The notes under the pieces: model-generated
What the model saw: only the letters and a program-made list of their open reading frames with translations
Told to the model about the DNA's origin: nothing
The model's database searches: none
Source: Haliea salexigens DSM 19537
GTDB taxonomy: Bacteria; Pseudomonadota; Gammaproteobacteria; Pseudomonadales; Halieaceae
Assembly (NCBI RefSeq): GCF_000423125.1
Contig: NZ_AUHJ01000005.1
Coordinates: 62,001 to 126,000 of the forward strand
Reading direction: 5' to 3'
Length of the DNA stretch: 64,000 nucleotides
Translations under genes and position numbers: made by a program
Shown: positions 55,579 through 64,000 of the stretch, piece after piece
Layout of the letters: every line of letters starts with the position of its first letter
Position numbering within the stretch: the stretch's first letter is position 1

Positions 55579-56346
55579 CTAGCGCATCAGTGCACCACCG
55601 TTCACGTTGAAAACCTGGCCATTGATCCAGCGCCCGTCTTCCGACAACAGCATTGCCACCATGCCCGCAATGTCATCGGGTGATCCCAGTCGCGTCCCCG
55701 GGATTCTGCTTAACATGTAATTTTTGATATCGTCGGTCAAGTGGCCGCTGCTTTCCATTTCTGCAGTGAGCACAAACCCCGGCGCGACAGAGTTGGCGGT
55801 AATCCCCCTGGCGCCATAGCAAGAGGCCACATGACGCATCAGCGCATTCAGGCCACTCTTCGACATGGCATAGGAAGGGCGAACAGGCTCTCCCGCATCG
55901 GCCGCGCTGGAACTGGTGTAGACAATTGCACCGCTGTCGTTAGCCAGCAGATGAGGTAATACCGCCCGGGTGCAGAGTAAATGCCCCTTCAGGTTGACAT
56001 CAATGGTTCGATCAAAGATATCGAGTGACACAGTTTCTGCGTCGCTGTCTTCCATAATGACGCGCAGGTCTGCCGCGTTGATGTGTGCGCCGTCCAATCC
56101 GCCCAGGCGCTCAACAGAAAACGCCACGGCTTCATCCACGGTGCGCTTGTCTGCGAGGTCGATAGCGATCGGATAGGCTTCACCACCTGACTCACAAACC
56201 TGCTGTGCGACAGTGTTCGCGCCCTCCGTGTTGATATCCGCAACACAGACTCTGGCACCCTCCCCGGCCAACCGGCGCACGGTGGCTGCGCCGATACCAC
56301 TACCTGCGCCCACGACAATAATACGTTTCCCTTTAAGCCTGGACAT
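55579..56346 (-). CDS. SDR family oxidoreductase
   Basis: 255 aa classical short-chain dehydrogenase: GAGSGIG cofactor loop, VADIN (Asp favouring NAD), catalytic Ser in YTSSSAADAG and Tyr/Lys in PSYAMSKSG; C-terminal INGQVFNVNGG. The usual NNAG motif after beta-4 reads NAAD (HINAADLRV). AGGAG is eight bases before the ATG. First gene of the accessory cluster; substrate unknown. Confidence 0.88.
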   Translation of the reverse strand: MSRLKGKRIIVVGAGSGIGAATVRRLAGEGARVCVADINTEGANTVAQQVCESGGEAYPIAIDLADKRTVDEAVAFSVERLGGLDGAHINAADLRVIMEDSDAETVSLDIFDRTIDVNLKGHLLCTRAVLPHLLANDSGAIVYTSSSAADAGEPVRPSYAMSKSGLNALMRHVASCYGARGITANSVAPGFVLTAEMESSGHLTDDIKNYMLSRIPGTRLGSPDDIAGMVAMLLSEDGRWINGQVFNVNGGALMR

Positions 56347-56462: not shown

Positions 56463-57089
56463 TCAGCCACAATCGCTTTTTTGCAAGTTTGCCTGCAGGG
56501 CAAGGCGGAGTGCGCCGAGGTGAGTGTCCAGCGCGTGCTCGAATCGCGCATCGCTGAAATGCGCCGCACTCACCATGAAAATAATGCCGCCGCCCCAGAC
56601 CAGATTGAAGACTACACCACCCTCCTCACGCAGGCTTTGCTCCTGGACCGGAACACTGTACGGCTCAAAGATACGGGTGAGTGTCGCCTCGCCGAGTGGG
56701 TGCAGGCGGCGCTCCGCCATGTCGCGCAGGATCAGGCCTAACTGGGCGGGCCGACTGCGCATGAACCGGAGCCAGGCGGTAACGGTCGCAAGAATACGTT
56801 CAACTTCGCCATGGCCGGGCGGCGCTGCGTGCTCGGCCAGATATGTGGCGTAATCAACCGCCATGCGTTCCAGCACCGCGCGATACAGTGCCTCTTTATG
56901 GCCAAAAAAATGGGCCACGCTCGGTGCTGTCTTACCGACGTCAGCCGCCACATCCTGCAGTCGGGTGGCGGCGTAACCGAGATCCGCAAACCGTTGCTCT
57001 GCGGCGTCAAGAATCGTCGTTCGAGTCTGCGCACCGAGGCGCCCCTCGCCCTTGGGGCGACCGCGCCGAGCCGGTCTGTCCTTCGTCAT
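56463..57089 (-). CDS. TetR family transcriptional regulator
   Basis: 208 aa. N-terminal helix-turn-helix (about 22-68): TILDAAEQRFADLGYAATR, then VAADVGKTAPSVAHFFGHKEAL; divergent C-terminal ligand domain. Divergent from the PLP-fold gene with a 207-base gap carrying promoter and palindrome elements, so it probably represses that gene and perhaps the cluster. An acyl-CoA-like ligand is possible, given the neighbours, but is a guess. Confidence 0.88.
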   Translation of the reverse strand: MTKDRPARRGRPKGEGRLGAQTRTTILDAAEQRFADLGYAATRLQDVAADVGKTAPSVAHFFGHKEALYRAVLERMAVDYATYLAEHAAPPGHGEVERILATVTAWLRFMRSRPAQLGLILRDMAERRLHPLGEATLTRIFEPYSVPVQEQSLREEGGVVFNLVWGGGIIFMVSAAHFSDARFEHALDTHLGALRLALQANLQKSDCG

Positions 57090-57184
57090 ATCGCACGCCC
57101 CTTGTGCTCCGCTTCTTTCAGCAAAATCATTCGAGCTGATATCACATATTAAACCGGTGGTGGACTGCCCTGATTTTTACTGAA

Positions 57185-57212
57185 TTGATATTAAGTTAAT
57201 TGGCGGTATTCT
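57185..57212 (+). promoter_or_regulatory. promoter with embedded palindrome before the PLP-fold gene
   Basis: TTGATA (57185-57190), 16 bases, TATTCT (57207-57212). The odd palindrome ATTAA-G-TTAAT (57190-57200) fills the spacer, a classic repressor position. A second palindrome, TGATATCA, lies at 57137-57144 nearer the tetR start. The assignment to the adjacent TetR is inference. Confidence 0.4.
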
Positions 57213-57296
57213 GTCACGGTGTCGCAGCAATTTGTGCGATGTCCCGGATTCAGGCGCTCACTGCCCTTCCCATGCTTGCGTAAAGAGGAAATAAAA

Positions 57297-58532
57297 ATGG
57301 CGACAGATAAACTGGAACCCCGCGTAGTCCGTTACGGCGGTGCCATGTTCGGCGAGGATGAAATCGCCAAAGTGAATGCTGTACTGCAAGACCCCAACGG
57401 TATGATCCCAGGCGCCCGTGTGGGTGAATTTGAAGCCGAAGTGGCGGCCTTCATGGGCAAAAAGCACGGTGTCATGGTTAATTCCGGCTCCTCTGCACTG
57501 ATGATCGCGATGCGACTACTGAACCTGCCCCAGGGCTCAGAGGTCATCACGCCTGCCCTCACATTTTCCACCGACGTGGCGACGATCTACCAGGCTGGAT
57601 ATACCCCTGTGTTCATCGATGTGGGCCTGGACAGCTACCAGATGATCGCAGACCGGGTCGAAGACGTTGTTACGGAAAACACAAGGGCCATACTGGTGCC
57701 CGACCTTATCGGTGGCATTGGTGACTGGGACAAGCTGCGTGCGCTGGCCGACAAGCACGGATTGCAACTGGTACACGACTCCGCCGACACCCTGGGTGGC
57801 AGCCTGCGGGGCCGCAAAACTGCGACTCGGGCTGACATTTCGATTACCAGTTTCTCTATTTTTCACATCATTACTGCGTTGGGCAATGGCGGCATGGTGT
57901 TCTTCGATGACGATGAGCACCTGGACAAAGCACTCATGCTGCGTGCCTGGGGCCGCTCTTCCGAGAAATACATGTTCGGTACCAAGGTGGCAGAAAGCGA
58001 TGGACGCTTCTTGGAAAAACTCGACGGCCTGGACTACGACTCGCTGTTCCTGTTCGAGGACCTGGCCTACGGCTTTATACCCAACGAGGCAGGGGCAGCG
58101 TTCGGCCTGGGGCAGATGAACCGTATTCACGAGCTGTGGAAGCTCCGCAATACCCGTTTCCAGGGCTACTATGACTTCTTCGCGGAACACGCCGATCAAT
58201 TCATCGTGCCGACCACGCTCCCGGAAACTGAAACGACCTGGATATGCTTCCCGCTGCAGATCCGTCCGGAAACCGGCTGGAGTCGCAAGCGTCTGCAAAT
58301 GCATCTGGAAGACAGTGGTATTTTTTCGCGGGTGATCTTTTCGGGCAACATCACGCGACACCCCATGTTGAAAGGCCGCGACTATCGCGTGCATCCGGAG
58401 GGCCTGGGCAACTGTGACCAGATCATGGAGTTTGGCGTGATGCTGCCCTGCCACCCCACGATGACGGAAGAAGACCAGCAGTACGTGAAACAGGTACTGC
58501 TGGAGTTCATCGAGGCCGACGGCGAGCCCTGA
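57297..58532 (+). CDS. DegT-fold PLP/PMP enzyme of RfbH/ColD dehydratase type, His at Lys position
   Basis: 411 aa from ATG 57297 (AGAGGAA upstream). Resembles RfbH/E1 and ColD sugar 3-dehydratases along its length: NSGSSALMIAM, VHDSADTLGG (Asp161 for the pyridine nitrogen), LRAWGRSSEKY, FSGNITRHPML. In SFSIFHIITALGNGG the position of the aminotransferase Schiff-base lysine is His190, as in ColD (His188), so it should not be a standard aminotransferase. The cysteines that bind [2Fe-2S] in RfbH (following DWGRD) are absent, and the EGG motif is NGG. No sugar nucleotide genes nearby. Confidence 0.82.
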   Translation: MATDKLEPRVVRYGGAMFGEDEIAKVNAVLQDPNGMIPGARVGEFEAEVAAFMGKKHGVMVNSGSSALMIAMRLLNLPQGSEVITPALTFSTDVATIYQAGYTPVFIDVGLDSYQMIADRVEDVVTENTRAILVPDLIGGIGDWDKLRALADKHGLQLVHDSADTLGGSLRGRKTATRADISITSFSIFHIITALGNGGMVFFDDDEHLDKALMLRAWGRSSEKYMFGTKVAESDGRFLEKLDGLDYDSLFLFEDLAYGFIPNEAGAAFGLGQMNRIHELWKLRNTRFQGYYDFFAEHADQFIVPTTLPETETTWICFPLQIRPETGWSRKRLQMHLEDSGIFSRVIFSGNITRHPMLKGRDYRVHPEGLGNCDQIMEFGVMLPCHPTMTEEDQQYVKQVLLEFIEADGEP

Positions 58533-58594: not shown

Positions 58595-59464
58595 TTAGTT
58601 GCCAAGGCCTGACGGCACGATATCGGGGTGGGCATACTCCGGGAGCACCGGGTCAGCAATGCGCTCTTTGCCGTTGAGGGTATACACCGGGAACTGATGA
58701 TGATGCGGAAAATGCAGGCTGTATGCAGTCAAGCCCGTGCGCTCAGCGGCCGGCAAGTGACATAGGGCCAGGCCAGTCTCCGCGATATATTCAATGCGTT
58801 CGGAGGGATACTCCTCGGGAATCCACTCGCTCGCCCCCGGTGTACGAATAGCGGTGCTCGGCGCGAGGGTGTTCACCGCGATATTGTCAGCCAACAGCTC
58901 CGCTGCAAGCCCCTGGGTCATGCGGTGCACTGCTGCTTTGATCGCAGCATATACCGTCGCGCCACCCTGCGCCGCGAAACTGTCATACGGACGCAGCGGC
59001 GGAAGTGCGGTCACAGAGCCCAACGTGACGATCCAGCCCCCGCCCCGCTTGCGCATCTCGGGTACCGCGTGGTGATAGAGAATGAACGGGGCACGCAGGT
59101 AGTGCCCGATGGTGTTTTCAAACAGGGTCTGCTCCATGTTCACCGTAGGCGCGTATTCGGCCTTACCGCCACTGTGCACCAGAATATCCAGGCCACCCAC
59201 CGCACCGACTGCCCGTTCAACCAGGCTTTGCAAATCGTCTTCTTTCTCGAGGTCGGCGACCAATGGATGGGCGCGGCCACCCTCGGCCTCTATCAATGCC
59301 ACCGTCTCCTTCAGGGTGCCTTCATACTTTCCGGCACTGTCCAGGCTGCGCGCCGTGACTACGACCGTCGCCCCCGCAGAGGCCAGCCGCTGTGCCAGCG
59401 CGCGGCCTATCCCCCGACTGGCTCCGGTAACCAGTGCAATCTTGTTGTCGAGTAACTTCGGCAT
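58595..59464 (-). CDS. SDR family oxidoreductase
   Basis: 289 aa. TGASRGIGRALA cofactor loop; VTARS after beta-2 suggests NADP preference; catalytic Ser in LGSVTALPP and Tyr/Lys in VYAAIKAA. The NNAG motif is replaced by HSGG (LVHSGGKAEY), and the C-terminus carries an extra tail of about 40 residues with a His-rich HFPHHHQFP stretch. Convergent with the PLP-fold gene; the Dabb-like gene lies upstream on the same strand (38-base gap). Confidence 0.86.
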   Translation of the reverse strand: MPKLLDNKIALVTGASRGIGRALAQRLASAGATVVVTARSLDSAGKYEGTLKETVALIEAEGGRAHPLVADLEKEDDLQSLVERAVGAVGGLDILVHSGGKAEYAPTVNMEQTLFENTIGHYLRAPFILYHHAVPEMRKRGGGWIVTLGSVTALPPLRPYDSFAAQGGATVYAAIKAAVHRMTQGLAAELLADNIAVNTLAPSTAIRTPGASEWIPEEYPSERIEYIAETGLALCHLPAAERTGLTAYSLHFPHHHQFPVYTLNGKERIADPVLPEYAHPDIVPSGLGN

Positions 59465-59502: not shown

Positions 59503-60546
59503 TTAATGCCCGGGGGCTATCAGCTCCAGCGCCAACAAGCTTTCCCCGAAAGCGCTGAAGGCATGAGAGAGGTTTACGTCGATCGCCTGGTCACCGGACT
59601 CCGGATCAAACCAGCGGTCGATATGCGCCCAGTGATGCGGGTGAATCATATAGGGGCCTGTCAGGCCGTCGAGGTCGTTGAATTCCTGCTCCCACACCCA
59701 GGTCCAGGGTGCGGCATCGGTGTGGTGCCAGCCTGCCGAGCTGGCCCGGCTCAAGCGCCAATTGCGTATCTCGGGAATGTGCAGTGGCATGGCGAGAAGG
59801 TCGCGTTCGAAGCAAACCGCCGTATCAGCATCCACGCCAGGCTGCAGACGGAAAAAGGCGGTGCGCTTGACCCCGTTGGCAATTCCGGGGGCACGCAAGC
59901 CTGCGCCCACAGTGTCCATCGCCAGCGCATGTATGGCGTCGCAATGCTGGTCGAGCAGGGGCGCAATGTGCTGCCGCCAGACTGTGCTTTTCTGCGCTTC
60001 CCCAGCGGTGTTCGCATCGGGATACAGGAGGTCCCAGGTCAGGTGGCCGGCGGCGTACTCCGGGGCAAAGTTGCGCGCCAGCGCTGTATGTTCTGCACCG
60101 GGTAATAGTGCCATCACCTCACGCAGGCCAGCGTCCAGCGTATCGATGCTGCCCTCACGCACGCGCAATTGGGCTGTCTCGCGGTAGCCTAGGCTCGCCA
60201 CGTCGGAAGCATTGCCAATGGGCGCTGGCAGCTCACTGGCCGTGTGTGCTCCCGGATAAACGCGCTCCCGAGAAATCGTGAGCGCGTCAATGCGCTGCCA
60301 GAACTCGGCCACTGCCGGGGTACCGGACTGCGCTCGCATGCTCCACCAGGCGCCCACGTCTGCCACTTCCCAGCGCTGCCAGAGCGTCAGCGGGGCCTCT
60401 GCAAGCATGAGCGGGGGGGATATTTCGCGCGAAACCAGCCGCAAGCCCCGCTCTGCCGCAGCCGGCTGATAGCACTCGCGAAACAGGCGCTCCACCTCGG
60501 GCAGCTGTGTTGCTTCAAGAACAATCCGGTCCAGTACTGTAATCAT
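59503..60546 (-). CDS. two-domain Dabb/EthD-like protein
   Basis: 347 aa from ATG 60546; GTG 60582 would add 12 residues. The C-terminal domain (about 225-325) looks like a stress-responsive A/B barrel (Dabb): KRTAFFRLQPGVD, a regular LHIPEIRNWRLSRAS segment and PYMIHPHHWAHIDRWFDP. The N-terminal 110 residues suggest a second ferredoxin-like domain of NIPSNAP/EthD kind, less certain. Such domains are small dimeric folds that often support catabolic or cyclase enzymes. Same strand as the SDR at 58595-59464. Function unknown. Confidence 0.65.
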   Translation of the reverse strand: MITVLDRIVLEATQLPEVERLFRECYQPAAAERGLRLVSREISPPLMLAEAPLTLWQRWEVADVGAWWSMRAQSGTPAVAEFWQRIDALTISRERVYPGAHTASELPAPIGNASDVASLGYRETAQLRVREGSIDTLDAGLREVMALLPGAEHTALARNFAPEYAAGHLTWDLLYPDANTAGEAQKSTVWRQHIAPLLDQHCDAIHALAMDTVGAGLRAPGIANGVKRTAFFRLQPGVDADTAVCFERDLLAMPLHIPEIRNWRLSRASSAGWHHTDAAPWTWVWEQEFNDLDGLTGPYMIHPHHWAHIDRWFDPESGDQAIDVNLSHAFSAFGESLLALELIAPGH

Positions 60547-60675
60547 CCAGTTCAACTCATTGCGCGCACCTTGCTGGTACACTAACGCAATCCGGCACGG
60601 ATTGTCGTGACTGTACGCATGCCTTTCAGTGCCGAAAGAGACATAACAACAACGAGTTCAAGGAGCACTACCAGC

Positions 60676-62250
60676 TTGGATACCAACCTCATTCGCCAGC
60701 AAACCGTCTACCACGCATTGCGGCGCACGGCGGCCCGAAACCCTCAGCAGGCCGCCATTCGACAGCACGACGTAAACTGGACCTATGCCGAATTTCATGA
60801 CCTTTGCCTGCGCGTTGCTGGCGGGCTGATTGAACGTGGAATTCAGCCCGGTGACCGCGTCGCCATCCTGTCGCGAAATTCGAATGCCTTTGCCGTAGCA
60901 CGCTTCGCCATAAGCGCGATCGGTGCCGTGCTGGTGCCGGTCAACTTCATGCTCAATGTGCAGGAATCGGCCTATATCATTGAGCACAGTGGAGCCCGCC
61001 TGCTTCTGGTGGGAGACAGCGAGGTGGAGAAAGCGCAACAGGTGGCTACACAATGCCCCGAACTTGAGCAATTGTTCTGGCTGGCAACTTCAGGTGATGC
61101 GCCTGAAGGACTGGACGCTTTCAGCCTGCTGGCCGAGAGTGCCCCGCTGGCGACCCTACCTGCTGTAGAGAGTCAGGATGCCGCACAGATCATATACACC
61201 AGCGGCACTGAATCGGCGCCTAAAGGGGCGGTGCTAAGCCACGCGGCGGTATTGTGGCAGTACGGCAGTATTCTTGCCGATGCGGAAGTCTGTAGCACGG
61301 ACACCCTTTTGCACGCCTTGCCACTGTTCCACTGCGCACAGCTGGACTGCTTTCTAGGGCCCGCGATTCAGTGCGGCGCCAGCAGTGTGATAACGGACGA
61401 CAACAGCCCAGCGAACCTGCTCGAATTGTTGTCGCGCGAAAAAATCAGCTCGTTTTTTGCGCCCCCTACCGTCTGGATTTCCTTGCTCCGCCATCCCGAC
61501 TTTGACCGTGCGGACCTGTCTGCACTGCGCAAGGGCTACTACGGCGCGTCCATCATGCCGGTGGAAGTGCTGAAGGAAATTCAGACTCGCTTGCCCCAGT
61601 TGCGCTTATGGAACCTGTATGGGCAAACAGAAATTGCGCCGACGGCAACCATCCTCAAACCGGAAGACCAATTACGCAAAGCCGGCTCAGCGGGCCGTCC
61701 GGTACTCCACGTTGAAACGCGTGTCGTTGACGATGACGGCAATGATGTCGCAACCGGTGATATCGGCGAAGTCGTCCACCGGTCACCACAGTTATTGACC
61801 GCGTATTTCAGAAACCCGGAGAAGACCGCGGAGGCGTTTACGGGTGACTGGTTCCACAGTGGTGACCTAGCAACACTCGATGAGGAAGGCTACCTCACCA
61901 TTGTCGACCGCAAAAAAGATATGATCAAAACGGGCGGCGAGAATGTGTCCGGGCGAGAAGTGGAAGAGACTATCTACCAGCTGCCCTGGGTCGCGGAAGT
62001 GGCAGTCATCGGCCTGCCACACCCACACTGGGTGGAAGCCGTTGCTGCTGTCGTAGTGCCCAAGGGTGAAGCGCATGCGCAGGCAAGTGAACAGGCAGTT
62101 ATCGACTTTTGCAAACAGCGTCTGGCCGCTTTCAAAGTGCCCAAACGCATCCTCATGGCGCAGGATTTGCCGCGCAATCCTTCAGGTAAAATCCTCAAGC
62201 GGAACCTGCGCGACACGCACGCCGGCGTTTTCAGCAGCGCCCCTGAGTAG
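60676..62250 (+). CDS. AMP-dependent acyl-CoA synthetase/ligase
   Basis: ANL superfamily, 524 aa from TTG 60676 (AAGGAG 11 bases upstream); ATG 60619 in frame would add 19 Ser/Thr-rich residues. P-loop YTSGTESAPKGA (about 172), LWNLYGQTEIAPT, hinge HSGDLATLDEEGY, DRKKDMIKTGGENV and catalytic Lys in NPSGKILKR are complete. The substrate is probably a fatty or other carboxylic acid. Divergent from the Dabb-like gene and convergent with an SDR gene six bases away. Confidence 0.9.
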   Translation: MDTNLIRQQTVYHALRRTAARNPQQAAIRQHDVNWTYAEFHDLCLRVAGGLIERGIQPGDRVAILSRNSNAFAVARFAISAIGAVLVPVNFMLNVQESAYIIEHSGARLLLVGDSEVEKAQQVATQCPELEQLFWLATSGDAPEGLDAFSLLAESAPLATLPAVESQDAAQIIYTSGTESAPKGAVLSHAAVLWQYGSILADAEVCSTDTLLHALPLFHCAQLDCFLGPAIQCGASSVITDDNSPANLLELLSREKISSFFAPPTVWISLLRHPDFDRADLSALRKGYYGASIMPVEVLKEIQTRLPQLRLWNLYGQTEIAPTATILKPEDQLRKAGSAGRPVLHVETRVVDDDGNDVATGDIGEVVHRSPQLLTAYFRNPEKTAEAFTGDWFHSGDLATLDEEGYLTIVDRKKDMIKTGGENVSGREVEETIYQLPWVAEVAVIGLPHPHWVEAVAAVVVPKGEAHAQASEQAVIDFCKQRLAAFKVPKRILMAQDLPRNPSGKILKRNLRDTHAGVFSSAPE

Positions 62251-62256
62251 TTAAGG

Positions 62257-63117
62257 CTAGTCTATCGACAGCCCCATACCCTTGAGCACTTCTTCCGGAA
62301 GTGCAGGGGCTTGCAGAGCCGATAAGTGCGCGGCGCGGCCAGCGGCAAACTCACGGGTAAGCTCCGGGTGCGTGGAGACCCAAAATTCCCCTGCGGCAAT
62401 TTGCGGCAGAATGCGCTGCGCCGCCTCGTATCCACTGATGCCGTCCGACGCCAGCATACCGTGCATCATCACGCGGTGCTGTTCGCTCGCGGAATTGGTC
62501 GTAGTGCCACCGTCCTCAAAAATACGGGTGGCCACCGGCCCGGGCAAAACCGCGGACACCTGAATTGGCGCCTTGCTTATCTGCATTTCCAGGAACAGGC
62601 ATTCGCTGAAGGAGATCATGGCGTGCTTGCTCAGGATGTAGGATGTCTGCACAGGCATCATGCCAAGGCCGCCAATGGAGGCGGTGTTGGCAATCCAGGC
62701 AGGCTGGCCACTGGCGATCATTCTCGGGGCAAAGGCCCGCACGCCATGTATCGCACCGTGAATATTGATATTGAGTGTCTTGTCCCACTGCGCTGCGGAG
62801 AGCTCCCAGGTCAGGCCCAGCGTCTCGACGCCGGCATTGTTGATCAGCAGCGTGACGTCGCCCCAAGTGTCATGGGTGGTTGCCGCGAGCGCGTCGATAG
62901 AGGCAGAATCTGCTACGTCAACCCTCACGGCCATGGCTTCCCCACCCCGATCACGGATACTCTCAGCCACAAGCTGCGCACGATCTTCGGCAATGTCCGC
63001 CACCACGACACGCATACCCTGTTCAGCCGCCACGCGCGCCAGCCCTTCCCCTATCCCCGAACCTGCACCGGTAATAACGGCGACTCCGCCGCGCAAGCGT
63101 TCCATACTGGTTTCCAT
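62257..63117 (-). CDS. SDR family oxidoreductase
   Basis: 286 aa from ATG 63117 with AGGA nine bases upstream. GAGSGIGEGLA, VADIAED (Asp favouring NAD), intact INNAGV, catalytic Ser in NTASIGGLG and Tyr/Lys in SYILSKHA. The C-terminal extension (EEVLKGMGLSID) is typical of SDRs acting on acyl or terpenoid-like substrates in catabolic clusters, but the substrate is not shown. Confidence 0.88.
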   Translation of the reverse strand: METSMERLRGGVAVITGAGSGIGEGLARVAAEQGMRVVVADIAEDRAQLVAESIRDRGGEAMAVRVDVADSASIDALAATTHDTWGDVTLLINNAGVETLGLTWELSAAQWDKTLNINIHGAIHGVRAFAPRMIASGQPAWIANTASIGGLGMMPVQTSYILSKHAMISFSECLFLEMQISKAPIQVSAVLPGPVATRIFEDGGTTTNSASEQHRVMMHGMLASDGISGYEAAQRILPQIAAGEFWVSTHPELTREFAAGRAAHLSALQAPALPEEVLKGMGLSID

Positions 63118-63186: not shown

Positions 63187-64000
63187 TCACTCGATATTTG
63201 CTACTTCCAGCACGATTTTCCCGCGGGTGTGCCCCTGCTGCAGAATACGGTGTGCGTCAGCAACGTCGCGCAGCTGAAAGATCCTCAAGGGTGGGAGTCG
63301 CACATCGCCACTGACCAGCAGGCTGGCAATTTTTTCCAGAGTCCTGGTGCAGTTCGTGTCGTCCATTGTAGAAAATACGCGATTGACACCCCTGGCAGCG
63401 CCCGCCTGCGCGGCTGCAGGAATATCGCCGTCGTCGACCAGGGTAGGAATGCTGACAAAGGTGCCCCCTGATCGCACCAGGTCAAGACCATTCGGCAATG
63501 TGCTGACGCCCACCGCATCCATGAGAAAATCAAGCCCCTCTGGCGCCCAGGCCTGCACTTCACGCGTGATATTTTCCGTGCGGTAGTCAATGACTTTGTC
63601 GACGCCGAGATCCCGCAGGTATTGCACATTGGGCGTTGAGCACGTCGCCGCGACTTCTGCACCGGCCCAACGGGCAAACTGTACCGCAAAGCTGCCGAGA
63701 CCTCCTGACCCGCCGTGAATCAGTGCCTGCTGACCTCGCTGCAGGCCCCCGCGGTCAAACAGTCCCTGCCAGGCCGTGAGTGATGCCACGGGCAACGCGG
63801 CAGCCTGCGCGAAATCCAGCCCCTCGGGGATTCGCGCGACCCGGTCGGCGTTGGCGACAACAAACTCTGCATAGCTCCCCTGCCCCCCCTGACCATGATT
63901 GGTTGGCGTAAAGACCCGGTCGCCAACGGCAAAGCCCTCAACGCCTTCGCCCACCGCACTGATGCGGCCCGCGGCGTCAAAGCCGATAATGTAGGGAAAA
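63187..64000 (-). CDS. zinc-type alcohol dehydrogenase/quinone oxidoreductase family, 5' end cut by window
   Basis: The frame runs off the window end (reading FPYIIGFDAAG from base 63999), so about 60 N-terminal residues are missing. GFDAAGRISAVGEGVEGFAVGDRVF, the NADPH loop HGGSGGLGSFAVQFA and the closing GKIVLEV mark the quinone oxidoreductase branch of the MDR superfamily. No catalytic zinc cysteines appear in the visible part. Same strand as the preceding SDR, 69 bases away. Confidence 0.88.
   Translation of the reverse strand, partial: FPYIIGFDAAGRISAVGEGVEGFAVGDRVFTPTNHGQGGQGSYAEFVVANADRVARIPEGLDFAQAAALPVASLTAWQGLFDRGGLQRGQQALIHGGSGGLGSFAVQFARWAGAEVAATCSTPNVQYLRDLGVDKVIDYRTENITREVQAWAPEGLDFLMDAVGVSTLPNGLDLVRSGGTFVSIPTLVDDGDIPAAAQAGAARGVNRVFSTMDDTNCTRTLEKIASLLVSGDVRLPPLRIFQLRDVADAHRILQQGHTRGKIVLEVANIE

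Follow-up and report, generated by a model that had tools for sequence, protein, structure and literature searches.

A lysine-less DegT-fold protein without iron-sulfur cysteines, encoded away from sugar genes and possibly a PMP-dependent deoxygenase of ring compounds in marine bacteria

The 64,000-nucleotide stretch of Haliea salexigens DSM 19537 DNA analysed here (the window) encodes P0001, a DegT-fold protein of 411 residues in which a histidine replaces the Schiff-base lysine, the iron-sulfur cysteines of its closest structural relative are missing, and the neighbouring genes are not those of sugar biosynthesis. From this combination we infer that P0001 is a glutamate-recycled PMP enzyme acting in catabolism as an alpha-ketol deoxygenase on a lipophilic ring substrate, possibly a steroid, a tentative reading to which we give a little less than an even chance. 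It appears that marine bacteria have recruited enzymes of this type to dehydroxylate ring compounds, steroid-like or other, in the course of degrading them, apparently a new pathway for the DegT dehydratases that lack the lysine. It is chemically demanding to remove a hydroxyl that adjoins a ketone, and to our knowledge PMP-based catalysis achieves it only with nucleotide sugars. A non-sugar member was not reported in the open literature that we searched, a body of text with most subscription journals outside it, which makes this weak evidence of absence. If true, the catabolic reading would account for the way in which marine bacteria deal with polyhydroxylated steroids or terpenoids, would give biocatalysis a means of deoxygenation without a nucleotide handle, and would imply that some genes now annotated as aminotransferases encode something else.

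The gene and the features around it that are used below are the following, with positions counted along the window.

55579..56346, minus strand: SDR in which GAHINAADL replaces the usual NNAG (PF13561, 7.7e-53)
56463..57089, minus strand: TetR-family regulator, divergent from the P0001 gene (by eye)
57176..57199, plus strand: conserved element TTTACTGAATTGATATTAAGTTAA, a candidate operator or promoter (conservation; imperfect palindrome by eye)
57297..58532, plus strand: P0001, the DegT-fold, putatively PMP-type enzyme without the lysine and the Fe-S cysteines (frame, profile match, alignments)
57864..57866, plus strand: codon of His190, at the Schiff-base lysine position (phmmer alignment to E1 3bcx and 3bb8; 51/51 family rows)
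58595..59464, minus strand: SDR, convergent neighbour of P0001 (profile/sequence match)
59503..60582, minus strand: protein with a C-terminal Dabb domain (PF07876, 1.1e-07)
60607..62250, plus strand: fatty acyl-CoA synthetase (NF006182, 744.4 bits, cut-off 663)
62257..63117, minus strand: SDR (profile match)
63187..63954, minus strand: MDR-type oxidoreductase, continuing towards the window end (by eye)

The reading frame of P0001 is open along its full length. A GTG at 57219 is a possible upstream start that would extend the protein, but the alignment with orthologues begins at the ATG. P0001 is a member of the DegT superfamily (Pfam DegT_DnrJ_EryC1, PF01041: 4.5e-76, 256.9 bits, cut-off 19.8); on the NCBIfam RfbH model NF011936 it reaches 244.6 bits against a cut-off of 423 and is therefore not an RfbH by that rule. 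The closest solved structures found with phmmer are E1 (3bcx, 4.8e-48) and next, farther away, ColD (2gms, 1.2e-33). The E1 alignment spans residues 15-404, keeps the WGR...YD region and places His190 in register with His220 of E1, a register confirmed by chain 3bb8, which we take to be the H220K mutant of E1 and which has a lysine in this column. The initial annotation had placed His190 at the Schiff-base lysine position, as in ColD and RfbH, and we reach the same conclusion. In an alignment of 59 proteins, the histidine is found in all 51 rows of the four groups assigned in this analysis (A, which includes P0001, A2, C and B) and in 5/5 RfbH rows; the Schiff-base lysine of the DegT sugar aminotransferases is not at P0001 column 190, where histidine stands instead.

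The [2Fe-2S] cysteines of RfbH had been described as absent, and they are. At the positions that we take to be the cluster cysteines of E1 (193, 251, 253 and 261), P0001 has A163 at 193, S222 at 251 and no cysteine around 253-261; its only cysteines are residues 317, 373 and 385, and a cysteine at E1 position 193 is present in some orthologues. P0001 is thus like E1 in its fold, its histidine and its WGR...YD region, and unlike it in lacking the cysteines, in an NGG loop that is one residue longer, and in having no rfbF or rfbG nearby. With ColD it shares the histidine and the lack of an Fe-S cluster and, since the cysteines are absent, the glutamate-recycled ColD route would be expected for it, whereas in the tree ColD occupies a separate branch. 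SpnQ, as described in an extract of a review (PMC8987622) and compared here by that description rather than by sequence, is another 3-dehydratase with histidine for lysine; it differs in having an Fe-S motif and a dTDP-sugar substrate, P0001 having no cysteine in the region.

Other changes around the active site are of uneven diagnostic value. The replacement of EGG by NGG, singled out in the initial annotation, is real, but it is not distinctive: clade B, which is linked to rfbF and rfbG, has GNGG too, and NGG was therefore dropped as a sign of a non-sugar enzyme. The residue after SGSSA is Leu or Ile in 46/46 rows of A, A2 and C, and Asn in RfbH, ColD and B. Six residues (His190, Asp161, Ser185, Trp218, Arg220 and Arg345) do not vary in any of the 51 rows from the four groups, and the clade A rows are at least 67% identical to P0001, which together argue for strong constraint on the active site. 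The loss of the lysine might be taken to mean that P0001 is a PLP-fold protein without PMP catalysis, a regulator or a dead enzyme; given the invariant residues and the conservation within clade A, we regard this as very improbable indeed.

The tree was built from 23 A, 6 A2, 17 C, 5 B, 5 RfbH and 3 other rows; it omits L115 (which has an internal TGA), near copies and partial loci. In it, the four groups A, A2, C and B share a branch that excludes RfbH and ColD (99/100). A and A2 come together (100/100), A and B (100/98) are each single branches, and C is a grade rather than a clade. The split of A, A2 and C from B has support of 90/80, and of 94/85 in a second tree that omits the outgroups L031, ColD and L148 and the row L110 because of their long branches. 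L108, labelled A2, places beside A, away from the five other A2 rows. Grouping L088 and L117 with B is not rejected (AU p 0.21), so that on these alignments a single origin of the non-sugar group A/A2/C is likely, and no more than that. As to whether P0001 belongs among true sugar dehydratases, a point raised in the initial annotation, the branches make it sister to, and not part of, a group with CDP-sugar genes; its nearest sister, B, does lie in CDP-sugar clusters.

Clade B was found in Sinorhizobium, Labrenzia/Roseibium, Leisingera, Palleronia and Ensifer. Its members resemble P0001 in their 40-43% identity, their GNGG loop and their lack of Fe-S cysteines, and differ from it in keeping the Asn after SGSSA and in coming after rfbF-rfbG (5/5 loci examined). 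Both rfbF and rfbG were found within 8.5 kb at 5/5 clade B loci, and neither of them at any of the 48 loci of A, A2 and C (23 A, 6 A2 and 19 C). We know of no characterised clade B member; B is presumably a CDP-sugar enzyme, and the idea that P0001 has no sugar kin at all was dropped on account of it. Loci were labelled by blastp (E 1e-10 over 45% of one query, within 8.5 kb) on gene calls made by a simple GC-position method, so that some neighbours will be wrong or missed, and several contigs stop less than 8.5 kb from the gene; within these terms, no glycosyltransferase of the types searched lies near the 48 A/A2/C loci. A sugar-transferase-like gene is found near one clade A locus, L005. 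L073-L076 and L078 are RfbH relatives without Fe-S cysteines downstream of rfbF-rfbG, and in the three of these loci that are annotated a class I SAM methyltransferase gene comes next; perhaps a branched deoxysugar is made there by a ColD-type route linked to CDP.

This kinship raises the possibility, to us an unlikely one, that P0001 is an unlinked nucleotide-sugar 3-dehydratase, most likely for a dTDP- or other NDP-4-keto-6-deoxysugar, and that its neighbours are incidental. The characterised members with histidine for lysine that the review covers, E1, ColD and SpnQ, use nucleotide sugars (PMC8987622, in extract), the sister clade follows rfbF-rfbG, and the gene near L005 points the same way. 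Among 33 carrier genomes, RfbB was found over cut-off in 30, Gmd in 21, CDP-glucose 4,6-dehydratase in 5 and the cytidylyltransferase in 4; a dTDP-sugar substrate is therefore possible. The window's genome is one of the 30 with the dTDP-glucose dehydratase RfbB, which is unlinked to P0001. Two carriers, G134 (clade A; L143) and G712 (group C; L145), carry rfbF and rfbG but show no RfbH over the 9-9.5 kb retrieved, the next genes being epimerase-like and methyltransferase-like by eye, so that CDP-4-keto-6-deoxyglucose may exist there without a canonical RfbH beside it. Against this stand the 0/48 count for rfbF, rfbG and the searched glycosyltransferases, the Leu or Ile that replaces Asn after SGSSA, and the window's genome itself (99.98% complete), which has no match to CDP-glucose 4,6-dehydratase or glucose-1-phosphate cytidylyltransferase (TIGR02622, TIGR02623) at E 1e-20 and no GDP-mannose dehydratase Gmd at E 1e-60. 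Moreover, two genomes of the window's genus, G018 and G019, carry rfbF, rfbG and a separate true RfbH with its cysteines. Finally, G693 has six copies and no RfbB or CDP-glucose dehydratase was found in it, though Gmd is present (421.5 bits, cut-off 415). The absence of sugar genes beside P0001, noted at the outset, holds up both on reading the window and with the set of neighbour queries. The larger claim, of a PMP-type dehydratase working outside deoxysugar synthesis, gains from the locus counts, from P0001's own genome and from the separate RfbH of its congeners; because RfbB is in the genome, it is probable at best and not proven by such sequence comparisons.

P0001 is, to judge by its recurrence in relatives, not a chance frame. 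A scan that took a single genome for each species and used patterns built from P0001 itself, and was hence confined to close relatives, found 29 loci (three incomplete) with identities of 68-98%. They lie in Haliea, Parahaliea, Sediminihaliea, Halioglobus, SAR86, other Gammaproteobacteria and MAGs of Myxococcota/Deltaproteobacteria. Among 140 genomes of the Halieaceae, the window's family, 19 encode a member at E 1e-100 or better, and five of these carriers have the second type, A2, at 55-56% identity. Of 398 genomes in a Pseudomonadota sample, the window's own was the sole one with a member at E 1e-60, and a sample of the phylum of G540 (Myxococcota by the title of L021) gave 12 of 235 at E 1e-80, five of the 12 being already among the loci found before. 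This last phylum and the Actinomycetota also have more distant members, about 40-48% identical, as do plasmids of rhizobia and roseobacters; 25 plasmid records of the family were found, seven of which were assigned (five B, two C). Phages have seven records at 1e-30, and the five listed show 29-30% identity. Parahaliea aestuarii carries two clade A copies on separate contigs, L002 and L003, 86% and 89% identical to P0001. The six paralogues of G693 (L108-L113), a 3.4 Mb genome of G540's phylum, are 42-53% identical to P0001, as if each served a different substrate.

The neighbours of A, A2 and C carry most of the argument on substrate. SDRs are the commonest (13/23 A, 2/6 A2 and 8/19 C loci) and account for 23 of 179 genes no more than two places from the family member versus 16 of 382 at four or more places (Fisher p 3e-4), an enrichment that comes mostly from C (11/70 versus 4/171) and is weaker in A (10/86 versus 9/147). 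A Pfam tally put the SDR family at 11/73 neighbours in A and 14/69 in A2 and C; it covered 73 of 84 clade A, 16 of 22 A2 and 52 of 68 C neighbours, plus one from L115 by hand, and omitted short, very long and probably spurious ORFs. SDR-like genes seen by eye in L112, L113 and L114 are unlabelled in the locus counts. Acyl-CoA ligases were found at 5 A, 2 A2 and 4 C loci, KstD-like flavoproteins at 2 A, 0 A2 and 4 C (6/48), Baeyer-Villiger monooxygenases (BVMO) at 2 A, 0 A2 and 2 C (4/48), and KshA at 2 A loci and at none of A2 or C (2/48). Rieske ring-hydroxylating alpha subunits occur at 4 A loci, with 0 in A2 and C, and DUF1214 at 5 A, 2 A2 and 0 C. At least one of the non-sugar families searched for is present at 33/48 loci, and none of them at the other 15. 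The initial summary of the neighbours as acyl or alcohol metabolism proved too wide for the relatives, near some of which, in two phyla, steroid-type ring enzymes recur.

The most suggestive of these loci is L014, in a Halioglobus MAG (retrieved at greater length as L141), where the gene directly precedes one for a 3-oxosteroid 1-dehydrogenase-like protein (7p18, 1.1e-141; 593.7 of 789 bits on its best NCBIfam model, under the equivalog cut-offs). A KshA-like oxygenase (4qdc, 2.6e-60) and two SDRs follow downstream, and on the upstream side there is an NADP-glutamate dehydrogenase (737.3 bits, cut-off 536) together with an acyl-CoA ligase and a further KshA-like gene recognised by blastp. The ligase recurs in L011, as do the KstD-like gene and the glutamate dehydrogenase; L011 belongs to the same genus-level group, g10, which is the only source of both glutamate dehydrogenase and KstD in clade A. 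Elsewhere in clade A, a KshA-like gene lies two places upstream in L013 (9.7e-45) and a BVMO nearest to steroid monooxygenase three places upstream in L004 (4e-67). In group C, which comes from another phylum, a Delta4-(5alpha)-ketosteroid-dehydrogenase-like gene (4at0, 9.6e-130) is two places from the G693 copy L109 and a KstD-like gene (7p18, 1.3e-70) three places from L087; the KstD-like labels of L089 and L106 come from blastp alone. A steroid is our best guess at the substrate because such genes recur in two phyla; they are away from most copies, P0001 included, around which KstD, KshA and BVMO are all absent within 8.5 kb (up to 64000, where the window ends). A GlnII-type glutamine synthetase gene (409.3 of 500 bits, under the cut-off) lies near 4/23 clade A loci, all of them Myxococcota/Delta with a common gene order. 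The DUF1214-type proteins were noted near L020, L021, L022, L026, L080, L083 and L104, in SAR86, Halieaceae (A2) and Myxococcota/Delta; of three tested against PF06742, two matched weakly and that of L026 not at all.

The chemistry that we envisage is modelled on ColD. There, according to an extract of the review PMC8987622, PMP forms an imine with the 4-keto sugar, the C4' proton goes to the histidine and the hydroxyl at C3 is lost; the deoxy-ketone and ammonia are released by hydrolysis, and PMP is regenerated by glutamate. By analogy, an SDR would oxidize a vicinal diol at one of its hydroxyls, and the resulting ketone would condense with PMP in P0001; His190 would remove the C4' proton and the neighbouring hydroxyl would be expelled. 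With no Fe-S cluster, the enamine would be hydrolysed as in ColD to the deoxy-ketone, ammonia and PLP, and PMP would then be regenerated by glutamate, itself recycled by glutamate dehydrogenase. Such a deoxy-ketone would suit a ketosteroid dehydrogenase, KshA or a Baeyer-Villiger monooxygenase as the next enzyme. A wider proposal, which we regard as rather doubtful, is that of a whole family of PMP alpha-ketol deoxygenases in steroid or terpenoid catabolism, in which SDR, PMP dehydratase and glutamate dehydrogenase would act together to convert a vicinal diol to a ketone, consuming NADPH, as marine bacteria degrade polyhydroxylated sterols. Possible substrates would then be an ecdysteroid 2-hydroxy-3-ketone or a 16-hydroxy-17-ketone.

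The same PMP chemistry could also serve catabolism on a sugar-like substrate without a nucleotide, such as a glycoside, a cyclitol or a 3-keto-glycoside, which we find distinctly unlikely. Alpha-ketols arise naturally from cyclitols. A Gfo/Idh/MocA gene lies just downstream of the L108 copy (by eye), and genes of inositol type (iolC, Gfo/Idh/MocA and sugar phosphate isomerase/epimerase) lie about 7.5-11 kb from L072 of R. erythropolis, both of which suggest a sugar or cyclitol. However, L108 and L072 are the only two such loci that we came upon, and they have to be set against the 33/48 loci with non-sugar families.

A non-sugar PMP enzyme might, alternatively, yield an amine, a transaminase-like outcome, in place of the deoxy-ketone. 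Native amine dehydrogenases belong to the 2,4-diaminopentanoate-dehydrogenase-type family, genes of which we noted near the group C copies L088, L115 and L117, the last scoring 107.9 of 400 bits on NF040740. Counted by locus, they lie near 4/19 of group C, 0 of A2 and 0/23 of clade A, P0001's own. There is a precedent in SpnQ, which transaminates in the absence of its reductase, but transamination was not seen for ColD and E1 (both from the extract of PMC8987622). The His in place of Lys in 51/51 rows also speaks against an amine as product, and we think this outcome improbable.

A further point on the ring-compound deoxygenase that we favour is a count of one enzyme type of steroid degradation, KshA. 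The window's genome encodes seven KshA_C-domain proteins, and the median is 7 in Halieaceae carriers versus 2 in the other 121 genomes (p 9e-9 with kinship ignored, genomes without a listed match being scored as zero); by genus means the p value is 0.01, in a comparison confounded by kinship. G042, a carrier of the A2 type, has zero. Growth on cholesterol is described for a Halieaceae isolate in an extract of PMC5790920.

The gene looks, on sequence evidence, as though it had its own sensor, made of the divergent TetR-family regulator and the 24-nt element between the two genes. A TetR relative stands at the corresponding place in L004. The element matches once in the window and 0 times in 100 shuffles, is overlapped by a promoter-like pair, and is identical in L001 and L004, much of the remaining L004 spacer having diverged. 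Its 21-nt core (at most 3 mismatches; control 0) occurs once each in four of the five genomes searched, directly upstream of a P0001-type gene, and was not found in the fifth, G134. An exact inverted repeat as TetR operator was sought in the window spacer, and none of at least 7 nt with close arms was present. A regulon was likewise dropped: the element, single in each of the four genomes and adjoining the P0001-type gene, points to no further genes. On the far side of the regulator, the GAHINAADL motif of the SDR is found again in SDR relatives two genes away in L001, seven genes away in L002, and adjoining the A2 gene in G020 (L083, L046).
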